Virus record (IMG/VR): IMGVR_UViG_3300026533_000020
Span: 1 to 21,119 of that record
Source: a virus
DNA: 21,119 nt
Reading direction: 5' to 3' (one strand)
Position numbers and translations under genes: made by a program
Notes under the pieces: model-generated
The model's database searches: none
The model's input: only the letters and a program-made list of their open reading frames with translations
Told to the model about the DNA's origin: nothing
Shown: positions 8,069 to 20,532 of the stretch, in pieces
Layout: every line of letters starts with the position of its first letter
Position numbering within the stretch: the stretch's first letter is position 1

Positions 8069-8884
8069 ATGGCAATTCCAATAGATGAAATATTCGGGGA
8101 TAACAACAAATCAAGCAACGGAGGTGGAACTCTTCAAGGAGAAGGTTTAAGAATGGGAATACCAAGTATCTTCATCAGAACCGGAGGGTGTAATCTTACC
8201 TGCCCAGGTTTTGGTTGTAGTATGGTTTCAGCACTAGATAAAGAAACTATTATTACTGGTTGTGATTCAATTCATGCAGTTAATGCAAAACATTTTAGGG
8301 GAACCTGGGATTACTTCGATTCAAGTGCTGAACTAATTCAAGAAATACTCAAACACTACAAAGCAAGACCGGGAGGCAACTCAGAAAAACCAGACCTTGT
8401 GTTTACAGGAGGAGAACCTTTAATTCATCATAGTGACCCTGCTCTAATAGGAGCATTGGAATACTTTGTATCCAGAGGTCATAAAGTCTATTTTGAAACA
8501 AATGGAACTCAATACATAGACTTTGAAAAACACCCTATCTACAAGAAATGTTCGTTTTCTATGTCTGTTAAAATGTCTTCATCAGGTGAACCCAAATCTA
8601 AGAGATGGAAACCAGAAGTTATTAATCAGTACCTACTTAACACAGAGGGTTCTTACTTTAAATTTGTCTTGAGTAAGAAATCACTTGAAACTGAAAAACA
8701 CGAAGTTCAAGAATTCTTAGCACAAGTTCCTACTTTTGGAATAGTGTACTGTATGCCTTTAGGTGAAACATCAGATGAAATTAAAGAAAATGCCAAAGCC
8801 GTATATACATTCGCGGCTGAACAAGGATTTAGGTATTCTGATAGATTACATATTCGAATATTTGAAGCACTAAGAGGAGTATAG
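8069..8884 (+). CDS. queE: 7-carboxy-7-deazaguanine synthase (QueE), radical SAM
   Basis: QueE converts 6-carboxy-tetrahydropterin to CDG, the ring-contraction step of 7-deazaguanine synthesis. The SAM-cluster region is RTGGCNLTCPGFGC at 37-50, with Cys at 41, 45 and 50 and another at 65. FTGGEPL later in the chain is the glycine-rich SAM-binding motif, and the N-terminal LQGEG is typical of QueE. The Cys spacing C-x3-C-x4-C differs from the canonical radical-SAM C-x3-C-x2-C. The SD AAAAGGAG is strong, and a TATAAT at 8046-8051 could be a weak promoter. The first gene of the modification island, it is followed directly by dpdA. Confidence 0.92.
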   Translation: MAIPIDEIFGDNNKSSNGGGTLQGEGLRMGIPSIFIRTGGCNLTCPGFGCSMVSALDKETIITGCDSIHAVNAKHFRGTWDYFDSSAELIQEILKHYKARPGGNSEKPDLVFTGGEPLIHHSDPALIGALEYFVSRGHKVYFETNGTQYIDFEKHPIYKKCSFSMSVKMSSSGEPKSKRWKPEVINQYLLNTEGSYFKFVLSKKSLETEKHEVQEFLAQVPTFGIVYCMPLGETSDEIKENAKAVYTFAAEQGFRYSDRLHIRIFEALRGV

Positions 8885-10342
8885 ATGATTAAAAAAACAA
8901 CAATAGAATCAGCAACACTGAGTTTCGCTAAACTTAAAGGAATACTTACAAGTTCAGAGTCATTAGGTTATGGTAAAGAATACAGCAATTTCGTAAAAGA
9001 TGTACTCTTAGACCTAAGCAACAAAAGTACCAACTGTGAATTCGGACTTCTGTGGAATGCCTGGAATGAGAAAAATGAAGCTGATGTTCTTATGGGTTTA
9101 ACTCACCCTGATAACCCTGTGATTATTCATGCTGACTCAGGAGGTCTACAAGAAATAACTCTAGGAATAACATTAACTCCTGAAGATAAACAAGGAATTT
9201 ATACTCGACAAGGCAAGTTCAGCACTAGAGCAATGTCTTTCGATAAGATGCCTATTGTTACTGATGAAGGAGCTAGAAATACAGCAGTAGATATGTCTAC
9301 TAGATACTTTGTTCGTGATATGCTTTTTGATGTAGGTGTTGAGTCAGGATATAATGTTCTTAATCAATGCAAAGTAATAGCTGAACTTCCTGAAGAAGAG
9401 AGAAAATCCAAAATTTTAGTTATAATCCAAGGTTCAACTTTCGAAGATTACCTAGAATATGCACGGGGCTTATTCTCTGTATTCGATGATTTAGACGAAG
9501 AAACTAAAAAATTGTATTATGAACAAATAGGTGGTTTATCTATGGGAATGTCTGGTATATCTAACTACTTCGATTTAGTGGATTTAATCCTAAGAAGTCC
9601 TGTTGAATTCACTATGATTCCTGAACGTCTTAGAAACGAAATACACTTTTTAGGTATCGGTGGTTTTACTAGGGTGGCTCCTATATTTGCAATAAAAGAT
9701 GACTTTTTTGGAGAGGAAAGGGATGTTCACTATACTTTTGACAGCACTTCAAGAACTTCAGCGGCGACTTACGGAAAATACACTCATCTAGAAGAAAAGG
9801 AAGAAGGAGTCTACACAAAGAAAACACTTCAACTAGGAAGAAAATATAATAAAACAGTACAGAAACATATTGAAATACTATATGAAACTTATAAAGACAT
9901 CATAAATAAAAACCTAACAGATAAACCAGTAAAAGATGTTGAAGATTTTAGGAATAACTTCAGTTCTTACAGAAAAGATGGTCTGAGATTAAATGCTCAG
10001 ATGTTAAAAGCAGGTATGACAGAGGAAGAATCTAGATATATGAGATTAGGAACTTCACTTATCTCAGACTTCCTGCATTGGTCAAGCGAAGTAATAGTTT
10101 TTTATAAAATCTTAGATATGTATGCAGATAAGAACTTTGATGTTCTAGGAAATCAGCAGTACAGAAAAGCAATATACTATCTTTCTAAAATAGATTCTTA
10201 CGAGGAATATATGAAGGATAAGAATAGAGGATATTTGAAATTAATCCTATCAGAAATGAAAATGTCAGAGATTAATATCGTTGAAACCAGAGATGATATA
10301 AAACATAAAAGAGTCAATATAATAGAAGATGAGGAGTGGTAA
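8885..10342 (+). CDS. dpdA: DpdA-family DNA transglycosylase (TGT-like)
   Basis: DpdA enzymes exchange guanine in DNA for a free 7-deazaguanine base, by analogy with tRNA-guanine transglycosylase. TGT hallmarks are present: ADSGGLQ with D84 (TGT DSGGFQ), a VIIQGS...YARGL segment (substrate loop), FLGIGGF (TGT GIGG), and FDSTSRTS with D286 where TGT has the nucleophile in FDCV-P-TR. The C-terminal zinc ligand set of tRNA TGTs (C-x-C-x2-C...H) is not seen, as expected for a DNA-acting member. The 485-aa length fits DpdA. The ATG follows the queE stop directly with AGAGGAG as SD, so the two are coupled. The DpdA subfamily cannot be fixed by eye. Confidence 0.88.
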   Translation: MIKKTTIESATLSFAKLKGILTSSESLGYGKEYSNFVKDVLLDLSNKSTNCEFGLLWNAWNEKNEADVLMGLTHPDNPVIIHADSGGLQEITLGITLTPEDKQGIYTRQGKFSTRAMSFDKMPIVTDEGARNTAVDMSTRYFVRDMLFDVGVESGYNVLNQCKVIAELPEEERKSKILVIIQGSTFEDYLEYARGLFSVFDDLDEETKKLYYEQIGGLSMGMSGISNYFDLVDLILRSPVEFTMIPERLRNEIHFLGIGGFTRVAPIFAIKDDFFGEERDVHYTFDSTSRTSAATYGKYTHLEEKEEGVYTKKTLQLGRKYNKTVQKHIEILYETYKDIINKNLTDKPVKDVEDFRNNFSSYRKDGLRLNAQMLKAGMTEEESRYMRLGTSLISDFLHWSSEVIVFYKILDMYADKNFDVLGNQQYRKAIYYLSKIDSYEEYMKDKNRGYLKLILSEMKMSEINIVETRDDIKHKRVNIIEDEEW

Positions 10343-11731
10343 ATGAGAGTTTTTAAGAAAAGAATATTAATATTAGATACTATGGTTTGTAGAGAATCAG
10401 GAGGTAGAACATTTATCGAGGAGTTCTTACAAACTCTCGATTCCTTGGATATAGTTGTAGATTATCTAACTTACGGAGGGACTGATGAGTGCATCAGTCA
10501 CTTCAAGAACTTCAATAATATGAATGAATTCATTGCTTTGAACAAAGATATGCCTGATTTGCAGAGATATAGATTGGATTATGAGAACAAAAAAGCATTT
10601 TATGGTGTCTATTTTCATAATCCTTTTACTGATGCTATGGTTATTTCAAAAGTTCATGAACTTTTGAATACGTACATATACGATAACATATTCATTAATC
10701 ATGTAGATAATTATCCTGCAATGAGCAATTATTTTCCTTTGAGTTCTATGATTAATACATTCACATACACTCATTGCTGTCAAACTTTTACTGATACACC
10801 TGCTTTCAATATGGGTGCTTATGAGAAGCTGAATACTACATTCTTAAGGGATATCTTAGCTAAAGATACTCAAATAGATATTATTACTCAAAAAACTAAT
10901 AGATTTGTAGAAGAGAACTTCCCCAATAACCAAAAACTTATCATAGGATTACCTCTAGATGTTGATAAGTTTCATAACTTCTTCAATCCTGATGAAGTTC
11001 AGGATTCAGTTCTTTTTCTAGGCAGATTCAACCAAACAGCTAAAAATATGAAAGGTTGGGTTAGCACTCTAGCAAAAACAAATCTTAAAGGGGTTATCAT
11101 TGTCCCTACTAAGAAAAATGCAGATTCCTTCATTGCTTTAATGGAAAAACTATCCTTCACAAACTACGAAATCCATTATGATTTAAGTTTTGAAGAAAAG
11201 ATGAAGGTTTCTTCAAAATGCAAGGTTTGTTTTATACCTAGTTTTATAGAGACTTTTTCCTTTGTGGCATACGAAAATCTTAGTATAATGAAAGTAGTTG
11301 CAATAGATAGAGAGTGGTCTTCAGAGTTCAAGAATTCATTATCTGAGATGATTCTTACTTCAGAAGAAGATGCTCCCAAGGTTCTAGAGGAAACAGTGAA
11401 AAACTGGAATAAAGAAGATATCATAAAGCAGTACAACACACTAATAAAATTCAATGATGAAATAAGCATCAGTTGGAGTGATTACCTTCTTAATAAAGAA
11501 CACAAATACACTGATTCACCCAAGAGAGAAACACAGATTATAAATGCTTTAATTGAAAACAACAATCTACCTTCAGCCTTGAAATCATTAGGTAAAGACT
11601 CTTTGGAATTCACTGAAATATCAACCTTATATAGGAATATAATTTGGGATGATGTAATACAAACCAAAGAAGCTTCATCTTACAGAGAAGTGAGTTCTAA
11701 CAACACTGAAGAGTTTTATAATGAATGGTAG
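10343..11731 (+). CDS. GT-B fold glycosyltransferase (GT4-like)
   Basis: The 462-aa product has an N-terminal Rossmann-like half starting RILILDTM...ESGGRTF. The second half shows VLFLGRF (about residue 223) and a canonical E-x7-E donor-binding motif in PSFIETFSFVAYE (E303, E311). Phage glycosyltransferases of this type often glucosylate modified DNA bases. Here the gene lies directly after dpdA with a strong GAGGAGTGG SD, so a 7-deazaguanine-DNA substrate is an attractive inference. Alternatives are glycosylation of host surface or virion proteins. It is not obviously T4 alpha- or beta-glucosyltransferase by sequence. The HAD gene overlaps its end by 11 nt. Confidence 0.8.
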   Translation: MRVFKKRILILDTMVCRESGGRTFIEEFLQTLDSLDIVVDYLTYGGTDECISHFKNFNNMNEFIALNKDMPDLQRYRLDYENKKAFYGVYFHNPFTDAMVISKVHELLNTYIYDNIFINHVDNYPAMSNYFPLSSMINTFTYTHCCQTFTDTPAFNMGAYEKLNTTFLRDILAKDTQIDIITQKTNRFVEENFPNNQKLIIGLPLDVDKFHNFFNPDEVQDSVLFLGRFNQTAKNMKGWVSTLAKTNLKGVIIVPTKKNADSFIALMEKLSFTNYEIHYDLSFEEKMKVSSKCKVCFIPSFIETFSFVAYENLSIMKVVAIDREWSSEFKNSLSEMILTSEEDAPKVLEETVKNWNKEDIIKQYNTLIKFNDEISISWSDYLLNKEHKYTDSPKRETQIINALIENNNLPSALKSLGKDSLEFTEISTLYRNIIWDDVIQTKEASSYREVSSNNTEEFYNEW

Positions 11732-12308
11732 AAGAGATAGACTATTGATTATTGATGTGGATGATGTTCTTTTAGATTGGACATCATCCTTCGGGAAGTT
11801 CATAACTGAACATTACGGATATAAAGGTGTTCCTTTGGGTGAGAACCCTAAAAGATTATGGGATATTTTAAACACAGATAAAGAAACAGTAATTAAAATA
11901 ATGAAGGAACATAATAATTCATCTTATTTCGGGGAACTTGAATATTTCAAAGACTCCAAATTATTCAATGAACCCAACAATTTCGATAAGGTTGTTTGTG
12001 TTACTTCTTGTGGTACTGAACCTGAAGTTCAGTTAGCTAGAACTAAAAATCTAAATAACTTATTTCCTGGATTCATAGATGAAATAACATTTTTACCTTA
12101 CTTCTCTGAGAAATCTAAGGAGTTCACTAAGATAGTGCTAGAACATAAAGACTACGAAATTTTCTTGTTGGATGATAATGTTGCAGATGTTGAGTTCGCA
12201 CTTACAAAAGGGGTCCTAGCAACTGTTTATAAGAGTTCATTCTATAGTAGCAAAGGACTTCAAACTGTCAATAATTCACAAGAGTTCTTAGATTTAAGCA
12301 AACAATAA
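11721..12308 (+). CDS. HAD-superfamily hydrolase (phosphatase)
   Basis: HAD motif I is DVDD at 12-15 (nucleophile D12, acid/base D14) in LLIIDVDDVLLDW. Motif II is a VTS segment (VCVTSCG), and motif IV is LLDDN near residue 148. The size and motif pattern fit small phage HAD phosphatases, including 5'-nucleotidase-like enzymes. It overlaps the glycosyltransferase by 11 nt, so their products are made together. It could dephosphorylate a nucleotide or sugar intermediate in the modification pathway, or simply trim nucleotide pools. The substrate is not predictable from sequence. Confidence 0.78.
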   Translation: MNGRRDRLLIIDVDDVLLDWTSSFGKFITEHYGYKGVPLGENPKRLWDILNTDKETVIKIMKEHNNSSYFGELEYFKDSKLFNEPNNFDKVVCVTSCGTEPEVQLARTKNLNNLFPGFIDEITFLPYFSEKSKEFTKIVLEHKDYEIFLLDDNVADVEFALTKGVLATVYKSSFYSSKGLQTVNNSQEFLDLSKQ

Positions 12309-12345
12309 GCTACGACTATATATAATTTGTGCATAAAGGAAGCAG

Positions 12346-12900
12346 ATGCAAAAAAAGAAAATTAAAACCCTTTTAATAGGGCATACATCAGGAATAGGTT
12401 CCAAAATATTCGATATTCTAGATAATACAGTAGGTGTTTCTAAATCCACTGGTTTTGATATCAGCACTGATATTAGCAAAGAATATGATTATGGTAGTTA
12501 TGATTGTATAGTACTCAATGCAGTTGGGCTTGATTCATTCGCACAAATCAAGACTTTCTTCAATATAATAGAACACAAGTCATTTACTAAAGATAAATTA
12601 GTTCTTGTTATGTCAAGCATCAGTGCTTTTAAGGAGAATCTTGACTCAGTAGATAAAATAAAATACTCAACCGAAAAGATGTCCCTGAACAAAGCAACTA
12701 GAAATCTTAATTCGATAGGATATTCAACTTCTGTGATTTGTCCTAGTTATGTGGATACTGAATGGAATAAAAACAGAGATGATATTATGAAATTAGAACC
12801 AGAGAAAGTGGCTTCTGTAACAAAAACAGTTATAGATAATTATTTCGAAGAGGGAGTTCTAATAAATGAAATAGTACTTCAGCAGAAACTTCAGCAGTAA
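12346..12900 (+). CDS. Short-chain dehydrogenase/reductase
   Basis: The SDR cofactor motif is IGHTSGIG at 11-18 (T-G-x3-G-x-G type). The NAG-like LNAVG lies near residue 57-61. The catalytic triad candidates are Ser in VMSSIS (90-93) and Y107/K111 in KYSTEK. At 184 aa it is short for an SDR (usually about 250), lacking much of the substrate loop and C-terminal part. It uses an AAAGGA SD; a TATAAT at 12321-12326 upstream has no matching -35. An NAD(P)H-dependent reduction or oxidation of a base side chain or sugar in the island is plausible but unproved. Confidence 0.78.
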   Translation: MQKKKIKTLLIGHTSGIGSKIFDILDNTVGVSKSTGFDISTDISKEYDYGSYDCIVLNAVGLDSFAQIKTFFNIIEHKSFTKDKLVLVMSSISAFKENLDSVDKIKYSTEKMSLNKATRNLNSIGYSTSVICPSYVDTEWNKNRDDIMKLEPEKVASVTKTVIDNYFEEGVLINEIVLQQKLQQ

Positions 12901-12909
12901 AGGATAAAA

Positions 12910-13665
12910 ATGAAAAAAACAAATTTAACAATAATGTATAGTGGTGGGTTGGATAGTTTTATTGCTTGGCACTTCGCCATAAAATCAGGTTTTAAACCAG
13001 AAGCAGTATTCGTGGACTTAGGACATCCTTATGCCTGGAAAGAATGGGAAGCGATACAGAATATGCCTAAGGAAATAAGACCTGAAGTAAAAAAGATAGA
13101 CTTCACTTCTTTGTTCAGTGTGATAGGTGATAGGATGGATAACCAAATAATTCCTAGCAGAAATGTTTTCTTAGGAGTCTTAGGTTCTATGTTAAATGAA
13201 AGAGTATGGATTAATGCGCTTGATGGTGAACAAAATGGTAAAGAACACGATAAATCTTTTAGATTTTTTGCTGATACAACTGAACTTCTTTCTTTCACAA
13301 ACAGTTATTTCCAGGAGAGAACTACAATAGAAACTCCTTTTTCGCATCTATCCAAAGCTGAAACAATCAAGTGGGCTATAGATAACGGGATACCTGAGGA
13401 ATCATTATTCCAGACAACTAGTTGTTATGATGATTCTCATAGAAAATGTGGGAAATGTTTAACTTGTTATAAAAGAAAAGTTGCTTTTTTATTAAACGAT
13501 ATTGATGAACCTGGTTACTTAGTAGATCCTTTTGAACAGGAATATGCTAAAGAATTGGATATTGAAATACCTAAAGCAGATAAAAACAAAGATTATTCTA
13601 GATTCACAAAGAAACGAATTGAAGAATACTTCATTATCAAGAAGAAGTTGCAAGATTTAAAATGA
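12910..13665 (+). CDS. queC: 7-cyano-7-deazaguanine synthase (QueC)
   Basis: QueC uses ATP and ammonia to turn CDG first into the amide ADG and then into the nitrile preQ0. The N-type PP-loop SGGLDS is at residues 11-16. PSRN follows near 82, and the zinc site is formed by C172, C180, C183 and C186 (SCYDDSHRKCGKCLTC). The 251-aa length is slightly above the family norm (about 230). The SD AAAGGA is 6 nt before the ATG. The gene follows the SDR by 9 nt, and its end overlaps the next start by 4 nt. Confidence 0.93.
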   Translation: MKKTNLTIMYSGGLDSFIAWHFAIKSGFKPEAVFVDLGHPYAWKEWEAIQNMPKEIRPEVKKIDFTSLFSVIGDRMDNQIIPSRNVFLGVLGSMLNERVWINALDGEQNGKEHDKSFRFFADTTELLSFTNSYFQERTTIETPFSHLSKAETIKWAIDNGIPEESLFQTTSCYDDSHRKCGKCLTCYKRKVAFLLNDIDEPGYLVDPFEQEYAKELDIEIPKADKNKDYSRFTKKRIEEYFIIKKKLQDLK

Positions 13666-13901
13666 GTCCAGCAATAATAGGTGGTCTCCTTATTATAGGA
13701 GGCTCTATTTTTATGTACAGAGGCGAAGTATTCAGAGCTAGTATCTTCTTTCTTCTAGCTGATATTGCCTGGATATTCTTAGGAATTCAGTCAGGAGATT
13801 GGATAGGAACAGGCCTTATTATAGTTGGAGCTATTCTAGGCTTAGGAACTTTCATAAAAATGCACTCAGGTAAATTAAAGAAAACACTTCATATAAACTA
13901 A
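13662..13901 (+). CDS. Small multi-pass membrane protein (79 aa)
   Basis: Three hydrophobic segments span about residues 3-20, 27-44 and 47-65, with a basic C-terminus (KMHSGKLKKTLHIN). The second segment carries Asp and Trp, which is unusual for a pure anchor. It starts inside the queC stop (ATGA overlap), so it is coupled to queC translation. It could be a small transporter subunit or a holin-like protein. Being inside the modification operon rather than beside the endolysin (17298) makes a lysis role less natural. No family is recognised. Confidence 0.7.
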   Translation: MSPAIIGGLLIIGGSIFMYRGEVFRASIFFLLADIAWIFLGIQSGDWIGTGLIIVGAILGLGTFIKMHSGKLKKTLHIN

Positions 13902-13914
13902 CAAAGGAAAATTA

Positions 13915-14676
13915 ATGAAAAAATACATAAAAGAAAGATTTAAGTTGAAATTTCCAGATTCAAATTTCAAAAAGCAATTCAAGAAATACAATAAAATCAA
14001 AGACTTTGCTCCTGATTCTAATGTTTTTGAGACTCAAGAAATAAATGAGGAACAGCATTTTATAATGAGAACAGCAACTCAATATCATATTAATGAAGCA
14101 TTTAAAGCAATGAAAGTGGATTTAACTGACCCCAATGTTAAAGAAGACTTAGGAGAAGGTAATATTTCTACGCCTGGAAGGATTGCGAAAGTCTGGTGCG
14201 GAGATGGTATCCACGATGACCGTGAACTTGGGGGTGGTAGATGGAGTGTTAAACCAAGATTGGCTTCATTCCCTAACAAAAACAAAGAGAATAATATTCC
14301 TATAACAAAAAGAGTAGACATTATATCTAATTGTTCACATCATTTCATTCCTTTTACTTCATTACAAAGAGAAGATTCTTATGCAATTATAAGTTATATC
14401 CCTAAAGATAAAGTTCTTGGAATATCAAAACTTCAAAGAGTTGCAGACCATATTTCACAAAGATTCTGGCTACAAGAAAACCTTACAGAAGCACTTTATA
14501 AAGAAGTTCAAGCAGTAGCAGAAACAGATTCTGTATATGTAGGTTTATTTAATATCGTACACGGATGTGAATCAAACAGAGGAGCAAAATCAAAAGATGG
14601 AGCATTTAGTTCAGAGTTCTACGGTGGAGATTTTAACAATTCAGAACTAAGACAATCTATAAAACAAGGAAAATAA
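13915..14676 (+). CDS. folE: GTP cyclohydrolase I (FolE)
   Basis: FolE opens GTP to 7,8-dihydroneopterin triphosphate, the first step toward 7-deazaguanines. Family motifs are complete: STPGRIAKVW at 85-94, SNCSHHFIPF at 138-147 with zinc ligands C140 and H143, GISKLQRVADHISQRF at 169-184, LQENLTEAL, and HGCESNRGA with zinc ligand C218. The 253-aa length includes an N-terminal extension relative to E. coli FolE (222 aa). The SD AAAGGA is well placed. It heads the pterin end of the island and is followed without a gap by the QueD-like gene. Confidence 0.94.
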   Translation: MKKYIKERFKLKFPDSNFKKQFKKYNKIKDFAPDSNVFETQEINEEQHFIMRTATQYHINEAFKAMKVDLTDPNVKEDLGEGNISTPGRIAKVWCGDGIHDDRELGGGRWSVKPRLASFPNKNKENNIPITKRVDIISNCSHHFIPFTSLQREDSYAIISYIPKDKVLGISKLQRVADHISQRFWLQENLTEALYKEVQAVAETDSVYVGLFNIVHGCESNRGAKSKDGAFSSEFYGGDFNNSELRQSIKQGK

Positions 14677-15015
14677 ATGTATAAAATAACAGATGTAGTA
14701 GAAATGGGTCACTCAAAATTCACAGGTGCTTCGGTGCAAATATCTTTATCTTTTAAGGATATTTTATCTGAAGAAGACAGAGATTTAGTCCTTGGTATTA
14801 TCGATGAGTTAGATCATACTTTGCTGACTAATGATATTGATTATATTCCTTTTTCGGAAAGATTCTTTATTGTGGAAGCTAAAAATCCATTCTATGATAT
14901 TCACTATGTAATCTACTATTTAATCAAAAGACATATCAAAAGACTAAAATGCAAAAAAATATCTATTACAATAGGTAAAGAAACATATACTCAGAACATA
15001 AAAGGACTCAAATAA
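14677..15015 (+). CDS. QueD/PTPS-like protein lacking the zinc site (112 aa)
   Basis: Three blocks match the QueD / 6-pyruvoyl-tetrahydropterin synthase fold in order: ELDHTLLTND at 44-53 (family LDHxxLND), NPFYDIHYVIYYLIKR at 70-85 (family NPTAENIAxYIxxxL), and ISITIGKET at 95-103 (family V-x-V-x-E-T). The N-terminal His and H-x-H zinc ligands and the catalytic Cys are missing, so it should not be an active synthase alone. It sits between folE and a complete queD, with a stop/start overlap (TAATG) to the latter. It may be a regulatory or structural partner of QueD, or a repurposed T-fold. The similarity is by eye and moderate. Confidence 0.55.
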   Translation: MYKITDVVEMGHSKFTGASVQISLSFKDILSEEDRDLVLGIIDELDHTLLTNDIDYIPFSERFFIVEAKNPFYDIHYVIYYLIKRHIKRLKCKKISITIGKETYTQNIKGLK

Positions 15016-15623
15016 TGTTAATAAGAAAATTGTTCAAATTCAATGGTCAGCATATAGTTAGAAACTGTTCATCTCAAAGATGCAAAAAATCAATTCACGC
15101 TCATACATACACAGTTGAAGTCCTATTCAAATCTTCGGGTTTGGATAATGGATTTATGGTTATGGATTTTGGTCTTATGAAAGGCACAGTTAAAGATATA
15201 ATTAAGTCCTTCGATAACTCATATTCGTTATGGGACAAAGAAACTGAAGAGTTCAAAGACTTAATTAAACAAAACCATAAAAGAATAGTTACTATGCCCA
15301 CATCTCCATCAGCTGAATCGTATAGTCTTATGTTTTTGTTTATCATAGATAAGTTAATCAAAGCAACAGAGTTCAACAACGGAGAAAAAAATGTTGAAGT
15401 TCATTCAGTAAAAGTACACGAAACAGCGACTGGGTATGCTGAATCTTTCATTGAAGATTTGGATTGGATGGATTATTCACTAAAAGATATTAAGTTCTCT
15501 GAAGAAGTGAAGAAAAGTTGGTCTAATCCTAAAATGTTCAAAGAACTAAAAAAATACTCAAAAGGCAAAACAGCAAAGAAACCATTCAAAAACCCTAAAG
15601 AGGTGCTTCAAATTGTATCATAG
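15015..15623 (+). CDS. queD: 6-carboxy-tetrahydropterin synthase (QueD)
   Basis: QueD converts dihydroneopterin triphosphate to 6-carboxy-tetrahydropterin, the QueE substrate. Zinc ligands are H13, H28 and H30 (FNGQHI, then IHAHTY), with C23 as the likely catalytic Cys. VMDFGLMK, PSAESY and VHETATGYAE match the family's later motifs. At 202 aa it is larger than bacterial QueD (about 120 aa), with an insertion before PSAESY and a basic C-terminal tail of about 45 residues that could bind nucleic acid or partners. The ATG overlaps the upstream stop; an AAAGGAC SD is in place. Its end overlaps the next gene by 11 nt. Confidence 0.87.
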   Translation: MLIRKLFKFNGQHIVRNCSSQRCKKSIHAHTYTVEVLFKSSGLDNGFMVMDFGLMKGTVKDIIKSFDNSYSLWDKETEEFKDLIKQNHKRIVTMPTSPSAESYSLMFLFIIDKLIKATEFNNGEKNVEVHSVKVHETATGYAESFIEDLDWMDYSLKDIKFSEEVKKSWSNPKMFKELKKYSKGKTAKKPFKNPKEVLQIVS

Positions 15624-16074
15624 TTCAGGAAAAGTTCATTTCGAGCCCGAAGATTTCGAGGAAGCAGTTCAGGATTTTGGTGTTCACTTTAGCCTAACCA
15701 ATCCTATTTCTAAAACTGAAGAATATTCATTAGTTGCACTCTACAGAGGAGGTCTTCCTCTTGGAGTTAGACTTTCTAATCAATTTAATTTAACATTAAG
15801 TATAGTAGATTATCAAAGATTGGATGGAGATTCATCTGAACCAGCATTTATTAAAAATATAGTTAAATCAGATAATATTATTTTGGTTGATGATATTGCT
15901 GATGAAGGAATTACCATAAGCAGAACTCTGGAATTTTTGAAGAAGGAATTCCCCAAAAAAGAAATTTTAGTCTATACTATATTTGGCAACAACAAAAAAC
16001 ACCCTTCTGGGTGGAAATATACATTCTTGCATCATAAAGAGTGGATTCAATTCGTACCTTGGGAGGGTAAATAA
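15613..16074 (+). CDS. Type I phosphoribosyltransferase
   Basis: The start is a TTG at 15613, supported by a strong AGAGGTG 7 nt upstream; no ATG fits. The PRPP-binding motif is VDDIADEGIT at 92-101, preceded by a hydrophobic strand (NIIL), and the upstream PPi loop is LYRGG at 43-47. The pattern is that of hypoxanthine/xanthine/guanine-type PRTases (153 aa). It overlaps queD by 11 nt, tying it to the pathway. It could raise the GTP pool that feeds FolE by purine salvage, or activate a 7-deaza base. Substrate unknown. Confidence 0.82.
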   Translation: MYHSSGKVHFEPEDFEEAVQDFGVHFSLTNPISKTEEYSLVALYRGGLPLGVRLSNQFNLTLSIVDYQRLDGDSSEPAFIKNIVKSDNIILVDDIADEGITISRTLEFLKKEFPKKEILVYTIFGNNKKHPSGWKYTFLHHKEWIQFVPWEGK

Positions 16075-16950
16075 ATGACAGAAAAACAACTTGAATTAAA
16101 GGCAGAATACCAACAATCAAAAGATAATGCTTCAGGAAAATACACACTTGAAGAAAGACCAGATTGTTGCTTATGCAACAACAAAGCATCAAGGTCCAAT
16201 AAAAAAACAGCATCAACAGTTATATGGAGGTCTCTCCCTATTATCTATAGAGTACATAATGACCTAGAGAAAGGTCATATCTGTGGAAGTTGTCATACTA
16301 GATTAATGCCCTTAAATAGAAAGTATGCTGAAGAACAAGGTTTTAAATCAGCTAAAGAATACACTTCTTTCCTTAAAAATGAAGGAAAAACTGAAGATGA
16401 ACTCAACAATAAAGAAAAGTACAAAAGAAGGAACCTCTCTATTCTCTCAGCATTTTTTTATGGAGAAGATATAGAAATAGAAGATATGTATGATATTGTG
16501 ACTAAAGAAACCATATCAAGAAAACATAGCAAATTCCCTGATGACAAATCCAAGGTTACTTTTGTTCCTAATCTACATCATATTCTAGTACAAAATAACT
16601 CTAGTGTCCACAAAGGAAAAAATGAACCTTCAGTTTTATTAGGTTTAGCAGTTCTTAAATTTAACCAAGTTCTTGAACTAACAAAATGCACTATGGTAAC
16701 AGATAATACCCATAAAGATATACACGATTGGTCTTATACTGATATTAGATATTATAATATTGAACAACTTCCTTTTGGTTTACAGAGTGAAGAAAATTGG
16801 ATTGAAAGCACTAATCTAATAAATGAAATTATGTCAGAAAACTGGAAATTTCCATCTTACCAAGAACAGATAATATCTATGTTTTCTAAAAAGACAGATA
16901 AAGATATAGTGGAAGTAAATAATATTATAATGGATTATTTTTTAAACTAA
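16075..16950 (+). CDS. Hypothetical zinc-binding protein (291 aa)
   Basis: Two CxxC pairs, C31-x2-C34 and C70-x2-C73 followed by H74, form a likely zinc ribbon in the N-terminal quarter (CCLCNN and HICGSCH). The rest is a helical and mixed region of about 200 residues with further His (LHHIL, DNTHKDIHDW) that I cannot assign. The ribbon spacing loosely recalls endonuclease VII-like nucleases, but the DHDH catalytic segment is absent. It begins directly after the PRTase stop with GGGAGGT as SD and may be the last gene of the island operon. Confidence 0.7.
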   Translation: MTEKQLELKAEYQQSKDNASGKYTLEERPDCCLCNNKASRSNKKTASTVIWRSLPIIYRVHNDLEKGHICGSCHTRLMPLNRKYAEEQGFKSAKEYTSFLKNEGKTEDELNNKEKYKRRNLSILSAFFYGEDIEIEDMYDIVTKETISRKHSKFPDDKSKVTFVPNLHHILVQNNSSVHKGKNEPSVLLGLAVLKFNQVLELTKCTMVTDNTHKDIHDWSYTDIRYYNIEQLPFGLQSEENWIESTNLINEIMSENWKFPSYQEQIISMFSKKTDKDIVEVNNIIMDYFLN

Positions 16951-17768: not shown

Positions 17769-19100
17769 ATGAAAGGTATATTTGACGAATTAAAAGAAGC
17801 AAATAACAATCTAGAAATAGACGACTCCCTCAAAGACAAATTCCTTGAACAGATTGATACTCCCAAAAACCAAGAAGGATATTACTTAGATGCCTTCGGA
17901 GAAAGAATCTCGTTCAACGGAATACGACAACTCAAAAAACCCTACACCAAACTCAACTTAAACAAACACCAACAGCAAGAAATTAAAGCCTGTCACCAAG
18001 ATTATTTTTATTTCAGGACTAACTATTGCAAGATTCTAACTAAATCAGGAATAGGAAGACCTGAACCTAGAGATTATCAAGTTAGACTAGAAAAAGAACT
18101 TGTTAAGGGTGATGATGTATTAGCTTTCTTTCCTAGACAATGCGTCACTTCAGATACTTTAATTACAGTAAACAACAAAGAAATACCTATTAAAGATTTA
18201 TTCCTAGAACCTGGATTAGAAACTGAACAAAATGAAACATTTATCAAGACTAGAAATATATCAGGAAGCAATTTAAAAATAAAAACAAATACTTCAGTTT
18301 CTAAGATAGTAGAGGTTCACTTAACTGAACCTCTAGACAAATATAAAATAACACTAGAAAATGGAATGGAATTATTTGGTTCTCCTTTGCATACTTTAAT
18401 TAATGAAAATAAAGAAGAAATTTCACTAATAAATTCCTTAGGTGAATATATTATTACTGAATATCAGCCTCAAAAAGTTATACAGATAGATGACTTAAAA
18501 GTAAAAGAACAGATGTACGACGTTTCTATAGAATCAGAAGAACAACTTTATTTCACAAACGGAATTCTTAGTCATAACAGTGGTAAAACAGTTACAATTT
18601 CAACTTTCTTACTTTGGTCAGCATTAACTAGAAAAAATATAATAATAGGTATCGCGGCTAATGTTCTTTCTTTAGCACAAGAAGTCCTAGATAAAATAAA
18701 GAAAATATATGTTGAAATGCCTATATGGCTACAACCTGGATTAGTTTCTTGGAATAAACAATCTGTCGAATTCGATAACGGAACTAAAATCTTAATCAGT
18801 GCTTCGAATTCTGATTCTTTCCGTGGATTTTCTTTAGACATTCTGTATCTTGATGAAGCCGCGTTTCTAAGATCTACTATCTGGAATGAGTTCTTAGATG
18901 CAGTTATGCCGGCAATGGCAGCCAAACAAGATTCACAGGCGATATTCAGTTCAACCGCGAATGGTTTAAATTCTTGGTATCATATGGTAGAAGGAGCAAG
19001 AAAACCCAAAAAAGAAGTTCTTGAACCTGAAGATATTATAGTTCTAGAAGATGGGACAGAAACAACAGTAAAGGATTATTATGAAAATACAACAAAATAA
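17769..19100 (+). CDS. terL: Large terminase, ATPase part, with an intein
   Basis: The ATP-driven DNA-packaging motor, gp17-like. Extein residues 1-124 end FFPRQ; after intein 1 (125-270) the chain continues SGKTV, giving a Walker A PRQSGKT equivalent to T4 SRQLGKT. Walker B is ILYLDEA at 358-364, and the coupling motif SSTANGLNSWYH (394-405) matches the T4 S-T-P-N-G-L-N-H-F-Y region. The ORF ends after GARKPKK and a linker-like tail (ENTTK). It therefore covers the ATPase domain only: 443 aa unspliced, 297 aa after splicing. The nuclease is encoded by the overlapping ORF at 19081. Whether two proteins or one frameshifted protein is made is unresolved. Confidence 0.92.
   Translation: MKGIFDELKEANNNLEIDDSLKDKFLEQIDTPKNQEGYYLDAFGERISFNGIRQLKKPYTKLNLNKHQQQEIKACHQDYFYFRTNYCKILTKSGIGRPEPRDYQVRLEKELVKGDDVLAFFPRQCVTSDTLITVNNKEIPIKDLFLEPGLETEQNETFIKTRNISGSNLKIKTNTSVSKIVEVHLTEPLDKYKITLENGMELFGSPLHTLINENKEEISLINSLGEYIITEYQPQKVIQIDDLKVKEQMYDVSIESEEQLYFTNGILSHNSGKTVTISTFLLWSALTRKNIIIGIAANVLSLAQEVLDKIKKIYVEMPIWLQPGLVSWNKQSVEFDNGTKILISASNSDSFRGFSLDILYLDEAAFLRSTIWNEFLDAVMPAMAAKQDSQAIFSSTANGLNSWYHMVEGARKPKKEVLEPEDIIVLEDGTETTVKDYYENTTK
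18141..18578 (+). other. Mini-intein 1 in the terminase Walker A motif (146 aa)
   Basis: The insert begins with Cys (CVTSDTLITV, splice block A), contains a block B-like segment (LFGSPLH), has block F YDVSIESEEQLYF, and ends GILSHN with the penultimate His and terminal Asn. It is followed by Ser as the +1 residue. Removing it joins PRQ to SGKT and rebuilds the Walker A loop exactly. At 146 aa there is no room for a homing endonuclease, so it is a splicing-only mini-intein. Walker A loops are known favourite intein sites. Confidence 0.95.
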
Positions 19101-20532
19101 AATCAAAGAAATAAAAATTAGAGATGATGGGAAGTATGATGTTATTATGACCTTCGGCGAAAACGGATACAACATATCCGAAGCTGACTGGAAAGAAGTA
19201 CCTAGATGGCATAAGGATGGAAGACTTAAAACTTCTGATGAGTTCAGAGATGAACAGATAGCCAAGAATGGTATTATGCACTTCGAGCAGAACTTCGGGA
19301 ATTGTGTAGGTTACAATACAATAGTAGATATCGATTCAAAAGAAATAAAAATTGGTGATTTATTTCTAGAGTTCAACCCAAAAGAAGAATATAAAGTCTT
19401 AACTCCTAAAGGATATAAAACATTCATAGGAGTACAAAAGTACTCCAAAAAAACATTTAATATTAGAACTGAAACCAAAGAAATAGAAACAGCACAGAAA
19501 CATATTTTTGTAGTAAACAATAAAGAAATATTTGCTTATAATCTTAATATAGGAGATTTACTCCAAACTAAAACAGGATACGAAGAAGTAATTTCTATTG
19601 AGGAAGGTCCCGAAAAAGATGTTTATGACCTTATGTCTGTAGATGGAGAAGTTTACTTCACTAATAATATTTTAAGTCATAATTCATTCCTCGGGTCATC
19701 AAAAACACTTATTTCTACAACAGCATTAAAAGCAGTAGAAACAGCAAAAGACCAAGATATTATATTTAATTCTTTGTTTGAAGGTCTAAGAATATTTGAA
19801 GAACCAAAAGCACACCATAACTATATCTTAGCTTCAGACCCTAAACAAGATGGGATAGATTCAATAGGACTTCAGGTTGTAGATGTTACTAATATTCCTT
19901 TTATTCAAGTTGCTTCAGCAAAAATAGAAGAGAGTTTCCTTGTTATCCCTAATAGAGTATTTGACTTAGGAACTTACTATAATAATGCCCTTGTAGTGCA
20001 AGAAAACAACATAGAAGCAAATCTAATTAATATCCTGCACTCTCAACTAGAGTACGAAGGTGAAATATTCAAAGAAAGAAAAACTTCAGGAAGAGGATTT
20101 AAAAATATTCTGGGAATAAGAACCACAACAAAATCAAAGAAAATGATGACTTCATTCCTTAAGAAGTTCGTTGAAGAAAAAATACTAATTATTAATGATT
20201 CAAGAACACTAGAGGAAATGTATAACTTCATAGAAAAAAGAAATGGTTCATTCTCAGCAGAAGAAGGATATCACGATGATTTAATTATGGCTTTAATGCT
20301 TATTTTTGCTCCTTTCTTTGATGTCAAAAATTGGGATGACTTTAAGGGTTTTAATGACTTAATAGAAAAAAGAAAATCCGAAGAGTCCCAAATACAAGAA
20401 GAAACAGCATCATTTTTATCTTTAGGTTTTAGTTCAGATGAAGATAATGAATCCCCTTTCACTGAGGATTTATGGGGTGACTCCTTTGGAGGTATGAATG
20501 CTAAGGAAATGTGGGAGAATGATATACTTTAA
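19081..20532 (+). CDS. terL: Large terminase, nuclease part, with an intein
   Basis: The C-terminal part of gp17, in the +1 frame relative to the first part and overlapping it by 20 nt. The ATG at 19081 has AAGGA five bases upstream. Extein residues 1-74 (including DWKEVPRWHKDG and MHFEQNFGN) are followed by intein 2, then SFLGSSKTLIS, matching T4 F-E-G-T-S-G-T-L-I-S. The RNase H-fold nuclease acids are D253 (LASDPKQDG), E308 (VVQENN) and D399/D400 (EEGYHDDLIMAL). A Glu/Asp-rich tail follows. It is 483 aa unspliced, 356 spliced; with the first part this makes about 653 aa, close to T4 gp17 (610 aa). Confidence 0.92.
   Translation: MKIQQNKIKEIKIRDDGKYDVIMTFGENGYNISEADWKEVPRWHKDGRLKTSDEFRDEQIAKNGIMHFEQNFGNCVGYNTIVDIDSKEIKIGDLFLEFNPKEEYKVLTPKGYKTFIGVQKYSKKTFNIRTETKEIETAQKHIFVVNNKEIFAYNLNIGDLLQTKTGYEEVISIEEGPEKDVYDLMSVDGEVYFTNNILSHNSFLGSSKTLISTTALKAVETAKDQDIIFNSLFEGLRIFEEPKAHHNYILASDPKQDGIDSIGLQVVDVTNIPFIQVASAKIEESFLVIPNRVFDLGTYYNNALVVQENNIEANLINILHSQLEYEGEIFKERKTSGRGFKNILGIRTTTKSKKMMTSFLKKFVEEKILIINDSRTLEEMYNFIEKRNGSFSAEEGYHDDLIMALMLIFAPFFDVKNWDDFKGFNDLIEKRKSEESQIQEETASFLSLGFSSDEDNESPFTEDLWGDSFGGMNAKEMWENDIL
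19303..19683 (+). other. Mini-intein 2 at the start of the nuclease domain (127 aa)
   Basis: Starts with Cys (CVGYNTIVDI), has KEIKIGDLFLE as in intein 1 (KEIPIKDLFLE), a block B region TAQKHIF in which the usual Thr before x-x-His is Ala, block F VYDLMSVDGEVYF, and ends NILSHN before Ser. Excision joins FGN to SFLGSS, a conserved terminase stretch. At 127 aa it is at the small end of intein sizes and has no endonuclease. The close likeness to intein 1 suggests a shared origin. Confidence 0.95.

Follow-up and report, generated by a model that had tools for sequence, protein, structure and literature searches.

Among the bases of phage DNA, modified pyrimidines are known to carry sugars, namely derivatives of hydroxymethylcytosine and hydroxymethyluracil of the T4 type. 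To our knowledge, such 7-deazaguanines as have been reported from phage DNA are small and unglycosylated. The locus described here raises the question of what a glycosyltransferase does in the middle of a set of 7-deazaguanine genes. It occupies positions 8069-16074 of the virus record IMGVR_UViG_3300026533_000020, a 21.1-kb fragment of a T4-like phage with 31% GC (the window below, meaning this whole stretch of DNA). Between dpdA, which encodes a DNA-guanine transglycosylase, and queC lie genes for a glycosyltransferase (GT1), a HAD-superfamily protein and a short-chain dehydrogenase (SDR). Probably, the island is an operon for the hypermodification of phage DNA with a 7-deazaguanine, and it includes a glycosyltransferase dedicated to that DNA.

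GT1 and its genomic neighbourhood

GT1 (10343-11731, plus strand) is a protein of 462 amino acids (aa) that is barely recognisable from its sequence (PF00534, E = 0.04). A PDB sequence search gave no match and a single-sequence scan found no close relatives; a family alignment was required. An AlphaFold model was built with 26 homologues, with a mean predicted local distance difference test (pLDDT) score of 70 and mostly 80-97 in the nucleotide-binding domain. It has a GT-B fold, and structure comparison places it nearest to GT4 members such as MshA, BshA, PimA and PglA. The model also matches the glycosyltransferase of phage HY126 (PDB 9ir0, E 3.9e-9), and matches among viral models include the glycosyltransferase of Bacillus phage SP-15. 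The EX7E pair (E303, E311), the phosphate-binding residues R228 and K234, H144 and G20 are invariant in 27/27 sequences of the family, and GT1 therefore looks catalytically intact. The GT-B glycosyltransferase named in an initial annotation of this DNA is thus borne out by both fold and active site. Like GT1, the T4 alpha- and beta-glycosyltransferases and the HY126 enzyme are phage-encoded GT-B enzymes, but the T4 acceptor is 5-hydroxymethylcytosine, whereas the base-modification genes of the window all belong to 7-deazaguanine and GT1 is nearest to bacterial GT4 enzymes.

Support for a DNA 7-deazaguanine as the acceptor comes from gene linkage, which was followed from three starting points. 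A scan of IMG/VR with a DpdA profile gave 80 loci. In 12 of these, several of them near-identical (L029, L042, L043, L046, L052, L056 and L059-L064), GT1 and dpdA share 4 bases at the 5' end of dpdA; in L028 and L051 the two genes are ~5 kb apart. The window is arranged differently, with GT1 following dpdA without a gap. In most of the 80 loci a second, distantly similar glycosyltransferase family (GT2) and a protein of ~126 aa (SM) are found directly downstream of dpdA. For counting, the dpdA2 loci were dereplicated and a flank was required, leaving 32 loci with the window included; 22 of them have a glycosyltransferase no more than 3 kb from dpdA2 (21 with GT2, 4 with GT1).

IMG/VR was also searched with GT1 alone, with no condition on neighbours. 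After dereplication, 26 loci had 5 kb or more of upstream sequence, some of them shared with the dpdA-anchored set. A 7-deazaguanine gene lies no further than 10 kb from GT1 in 24 of the 26; the others are L130 and Xanthomonas phage X1, and the X1 genome does contain a dpdA2 cluster, at a distance of ~40 kb. Few of the loci new from this search carry DpdA2; those looked at have a different protein, TG, which resembles tRNA-guanine transglycosylases (TGT), beside SM and GT2. TG is distantly related to DpdA2 (profile match of the TG of phage PA5oct, 6.5e-8), and the linkage of GT1 therefore spans two transglycosylase families. A search with GT2 only, seeded with three sequences, gave at least 572 confirmed relatives. 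Among the best 80, all 57 loci with flanking sequence contain 7-deazaguanine or transglycosylase genes. One cultured phage has FolE, GT1, DpdA2, SM and GT2 contiguously, and GT2 is present in the cultured phages BUCT-ZZ01, ACP17, X1, PA5oct and Paride, in each case annotated as a hypothetical protein.

In almost all viruses that have it, the glycosyltransferase family is thus found beside 7-deazaguanine genes, so that the window phage and many others probably carry a sugar-bearing DNA base. The proposal that GT1 decorates a 7-deazaguanine in DNA is strongly supported by this comparative genomics, and a predicted glycosylated 7-deazaguanine in phage DNA can be called well supported by inference. 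For the initial annotation, which had suggested a decorated and possibly glycosylated base made with three extra enzymes, this upholds the glycosyltransferase part; the case for the HAD protein is weak, and a part for the SDR is at most plausible (see below).

Some observations on the TG loci can be added. PA5oct (L251, 9986-15314) and Paride (L252, 8274-13602) are cultured Pseudomonas aeruginosa jumbo phages with TG, GT2 and SM. In PA5oct these are followed by a 172-aa Rossmann/SDR-like protein, a phosphoribosyltransferase and QueE; QueE alone is annotated in the PA5oct and Paride cluster, the remainder being hypothetical. In L210 (4838-6377) the TG-like gene is split into two overlapping open reading frames (ORFs), by a frameshift or an assembly error.

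GT2 and SM versus QueC

The presence of GT2 and SM is mirrored by the absence of QueC. None of the 22 dereplicated DpdA2 loci with GT2 has QueC (L002 counted), and all 10 DpdA2 loci without GT2 have it, counting a weak QueC-like protein in L080 (Fisher 1.6e-8; 3.6e-7 without L080). QueC is likewise absent from the GT2-anchored loci (0/80, the best 80 of at least 572), and no QueC match was found in the whole records of the cultured phages PA5oct, Paride, ACP17 and BUCT-ZZ01. A PTPS/QueD match is present in 30/30 whole records tested. Five records (G003, G027, G028, G053 and G058) match the C-terminal part of QueC weakly, and X1 and G021 its N-terminal part; none of these matches was taken as QueC. 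The records of L018, L068, L049, L131 and L132, which have no full QueC, each contain two short matches to its C-terminal part (profile positions ~150-209, open frames of 175-224 aa).

The SM model has a QueD fold (pLDDT 84; E. coli QueD, template modelling score 0.71, E 1.2e-5). The protein keeps the GxH and HxH histidines, which we take to be the QueD zinc ligands, and the Cys before HxH is absent. Since GT2/SM and QueC are mutually exclusive, a fork of the pathway at 7-carboxy-7-deazaguanine is suggested. The GT2 branch may use 7-carboxy-7-deazaguanine itself, with GT2 and SM replacing QueC in finishing the base, a reading of gene content that a host QueC could blur. The window lies outside this branch: it has QueC and GT1, and its 21 kb contain neither GT2 nor SM. 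Since the QueC reaction proceeds by way of an amide, this amide (ADG) could be the acceptor in the window.

The nearest relative of the window, L002 (IMGVR_UViG_3300026488_000017), illustrates the other branch. Its proteins are 38% (DpdA), 69% (FolE), 48% (phosphoribosyltransferase) and 47% (a 79-aa membrane protein, TM79) identical to those of the window, but it has GT2 and SM together with a GDP-heptose pathway, and no QueC was found in its 105 kb. HddA (3.7e-110), GmhA, HddC and GmhB are encoded between its dpdA and folE. Another protein encoded there matches GDP-D-glycero-D-manno-heptose 4,6-dehydratase (7us5) at 4.5e-160, and its gene is followed by a further SDR, recognised by eye, and then by SM and GT2. 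The island thus apparently holds a route to GDP-heptose and its 4-keto-6-deoxy form. A GalE-type epimerase (8e-83) stands beside GT2 in L059, and the sugars appear to differ from phage to phage. Cultured Synechococcus phage BUCT-ZZ01 (ON615601) resembles the window in having QueE, phosphoribosyltransferase, QueD, FolE, GT1 and DpdA2 in one contiguous set; it differs in having SM and GT2 too, and in having no QueC in the whole record and no HAD or SDR gene in between.

A wider scheme can be offered tentatively, as possible though not quite probable. The pathway would fork at 7-carboxy-7-deazaguanine into a QueC branch leading to amide or nitrile bases, and a QueC-less branch with SM and GT2 (sometimes GT1) leading to a sugar-bearing DNA base, the sugars including hexoses and heptose or 6-deoxyheptose. 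The window would be a QueC and GT1 hybrid, and the glycosylated purines would form a new class in hundreds of viral contigs and several cultured phages.

Other genes in related clusters may point to further ways of tailoring the base. Stenotrophomonas phage YB07 (L170, 3506-9029), whose cluster has no GT2, encodes a myo-inositol-1-phosphate synthase (PF01658, 1.4e-21) between FolE and QueC-DpdA2-QueE, perhaps another tailoring route. A gene that on inspection resembles S-adenosylmethionine-dependent methyltransferases is found on the 5' side of QueC, adjacent or close to it, in L008 (7735-8373), L038 (5540-6163) and L009 (17986-18627), and a methyltransferase-like gene in such dpdA2 islands without a glycosyltransferase is a possible alternative means of base tailoring. 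Separately, L002 (1129-2515 and 4209-4616) and L085 (17109-17699) contain ankyrin-like ORFs of one virus that share the C-terminal tail KK(L/I)GKYADLL.

The operon and its proposed pathway

The island contains eleven ORFs in one direction, on the plus strand, in the order QueE, DpdA, GT1, HAD, SDR, QueC, TM79, FolE, a 112-aa ORF, QueD and phosphoribosyltransferase. They are gapless or overlapping, with a spacing of -11 to +37 bp, in agreement with the tight packing described initially. All eight proteins that had been named (FolE, QueD, QueE, QueC, DpdA, glycosyltransferase, HAD and SDR) are backed by Pfam, phrog, motif or model evidence; TM79, the 112-aa ORF and the phosphoribosyltransferase are additions.

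The QueE-like radical SAM protein (8069-8884), a 7-carboxy-7-deazaguanine synthase, matches phrog_2076 (1.1e-45) and has the Cys pattern common to its relatives. DpdA (8885-10342) has no Pfam match; it matches phrog_10773 (3.5e-48) and is related to the Vibrio phage nt-1 protein DpdA2, with 32% identity over 55% (4e-27). It keeps the Asp of the DSGG motif (D84) and a second conserved Asp (D286), as expected of a member of the TGT family. The QueC-like ATPase (12910-13665; PF06508, 6.9e-17), for amide or nitrile formation, has SGGLDS and CxKCxxC motifs and is 65-68% identical to QueC of L008 and L038. FolE, a GTP cyclohydrolase I (13915-14676; PF01227, 4e-25), QueC (7e-17) and QueD (15015-15623; PF01242, 7.6e-19) all exceed the Pfam cut-offs. 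The preQ0-pathway genes FolE, QueD, QueE and QueC are therefore all present, with the caveat that QueD has Asn in place of the His of its catalytic dyad. The full route from GTP that had been proposed thus holds for gene content, and is weakened at QueD, which is either impaired or compensated by something else, judging from the alignment. The 112-aa ORF (14677-15015) has an LDH motif and was considered as a second QueD or a counterpart of SM in view of the change in QueD, but profile comparison gave no relationship; it belongs to no significant family (phrog_4051, E = 0.004 at best).

Neither QueF nor ArcS, a glutamine amidotransferase or a DpdC-type domain turned up in domain scans of the island and of those other window ORFs that were scanned, in line with the earlier statement that no preQ0 amidotransferase or QueF is present. 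Within the island, the scans thus gave neither the QueF reductase of dPreQ1 phages nor the ArcS, QueF-L or Gat-QueC amidotransferase of dG+ (deoxyarchaeosine) phages.

The HAD protein (11721-12308; phrog_420, 1.5e-21) belongs to a family that recurs in 854 phage records, for the most part from phages that infect enterobacteria. Such a widespread T4-like gene says little in favour of a dedicated tailoring enzyme; the role of an extra modification enzyme proposed for the HAD protein was set aside, and it is probably a passenger. The short classical SDR (12346-12900) was read by eye from the motifs GHTSGIG, NAVG, SSIS and YSTEK, with marginal database support (NCBIfam SDR, E = 0.04). No relative was found in phage records and no homologue in any fetched locus; a PDB match to a phage tail protein (2e-5) consists of three short matches to repeats and was rejected. 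A different, extended SDR/epimerase follows GT1 directly in 60/79 GT1-anchored loci. A role of the window SDR in tailoring the sugar donor or the base is at most plausible. The phosphoribosyltransferase (15613-16074; PF00156, 3.8e-13) belongs to a family found in 94 of the loci collected, and in 47 of these the gene lies within 1 kb of a 7-deazaguanine gene. It occurs in 58/80 GT2-anchored loci (the best 80 of at least 572). TM79 (13662-13901), hydrophobic, is 44-47% identical to proteins of the 7-deazaguanine islands of L002/L085 and L009.

From these genes the following pathway can be proposed. FolE, QueD and QueE would convert GTP to 7-carboxy-7-deazaguanine, and QueC would turn this into the amide (ADG) or the nitrile (preQ0). 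DpdA2 would exchange guanine in the phage DNA for the QueC product, and the displaced guanine might be recycled by the phosphoribosyltransferase. GT1, as a retaining-type, GT4-like enzyme, would then transfer a sugar from a nucleotide sugar, possibly tailored by the SDR, to the inserted base. We infer the order of these steps, and the finished base may protect the DNA from restriction.

Elsewhere the window encodes T4-type proteins of replication and packaging, namely a single-strand DNA-binding protein, an exonuclease, a clamp-loader-like ATPase, a primase and a terminase. Directly after the phosphoribosyltransferase, 16075-16950 encodes a 291-aa protein with CxxC-type motifs, which has a weak relative in the dpdA locus L008 (39% over 83 aa). 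The terminase large subunit (17769-20532) is divided between two ORFs that lie in different frames and overlap at 19081-19100. Each half has an apparent mini-intein (CVTSDTLI...ILSHNS and CVGYNTIV...ILSHNS), with a weak match to the Intein_splicing domain.

Alternative readings and implications

Several points weigh against a glycosylated base in the window phage. GT1 and QueC occur together on just two contigs, the window and L065/L165. The nitrile preQ0 lacks a hydroxyl or amine to which a sugar could be attached, and plain dPreQ0 would therefore be no acceptor. The window QueD reads FDNSY where 9/9 aligned relatives have Asp-His, which makes its activity uncertain and the route to the base not fully secure. 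Neither HAD nor SDR is specifically linked to 7-deazaguanine genes. Because dpdA loci supplied most of the seed alignments, glycosyltransferase relatives elsewhere may be under-sampled, and distant relatives do occur in Erwinia jumbo phages, at about 21-25% identity.

One rival reading is a phage whose DNA contains only a known 7-deazaguanine (dPreQ0 or dADG), with GT1, HAD and SDR as neighbours that have a separate task in surface-glycan, protein or small-molecule glycosylation. The window does have QueC, phages with FolE, QueD, QueE, QueC and DpdA2 and no glycosyltransferase exist (L008, L009, L038), glycan building is common among GT4 enzymes, and dPreQ0 was detected in the DNA of Vibrio phage nt-1 in the study that defined the DpdA2 subfamily (Hutinet 2019, PMC6884629). 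The nt-1 cluster has DpdA2, FolE, QueD, QueE and QueC together as in the window, but no GT1, GT2 or SM was found near its dpdA, whereas the window has glycosyltransferase, HAD and SDR genes between dpdA and queC. An unglycosylated base would leave unexplained why GT1 and, among the best 80 loci, GT2 are so consistently linked to these genes across two transglycosylase families, and why GT2 and QueC exclude each other. It is a rather unlikely explanation.

It is improbable, though the genomic data would look the same, that the sugar is added before insertion, with the glycosyltransferase acting on a free 7-deazaguanine base or nucleotide and the transglycosylase inserting the finished base. tRNA-guanine transglycosylases accept modified free bases, and the QueD fold of SM, which binds pterin-like rings, could hold one. 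A bulky glycosylated base would nevertheless be an unusual substrate for the transglycosylase family, and the phage DNA glycosyltransferases known to us (T4 type) act on polymerised DNA. A pathway serving tRNA, through queuosine or a glycosylated form of it, is very improbable: animal tRNA contains glycosylated queuosine (PMC12518689) and the que genes of phage Ps15 were read by their authors mainly as tRNA queuosine genes (PMC9025141), but the dPreQ0 to which nt-1 DpdA2 is linked is a base of phage DNA, and QueA, QueG and QueH were not found in the viruses analysed (PMC6884629), which leaves no cyclopentene hydroxyl for a sugar.

The preferred reading, a 7-deazaguanine inserted by DpdA2 and then glycosylated, joins a known chemistry to a step that appears to be new. 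Bacterial dpd islands (dpdA-K) also use a TGT homologue to place a 7-deazaguanine in DNA, but no dpdB-K are present in the window and its DpdA2 is of the phage type. In the parts of the literature searched, a glycosyltransferase was not found together with dpdA, 7-deazaguanine or dCDG as one DNA modification, and an earlier mention is still possible. The words 'glycosyl' and 'sugar' occur nowhere in Hutinet 2019 (PMC6884629), and neither 'deazaguanine' nor 'DNA modification' occurs in the Paride paper. As far as searched, the base exchange is thus known and the glycosylation step not previously reported.

If the preferred reading is true, phages would make a glycosylated purine in DNA by a route unrelated to that of the pyrimidines, by base exchange followed by glycosylation. 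DNA glycosyltransferases would gain new families, and the contrast of GT2/SM with QueC would serve as a simple rule for reading genomes. The proposal is directly testable on phages in culture (BUCT-ZZ01, ACP17, X1, PA5oct and Paride), and such a base may help to explain the resistance of large phages to host nucleases.

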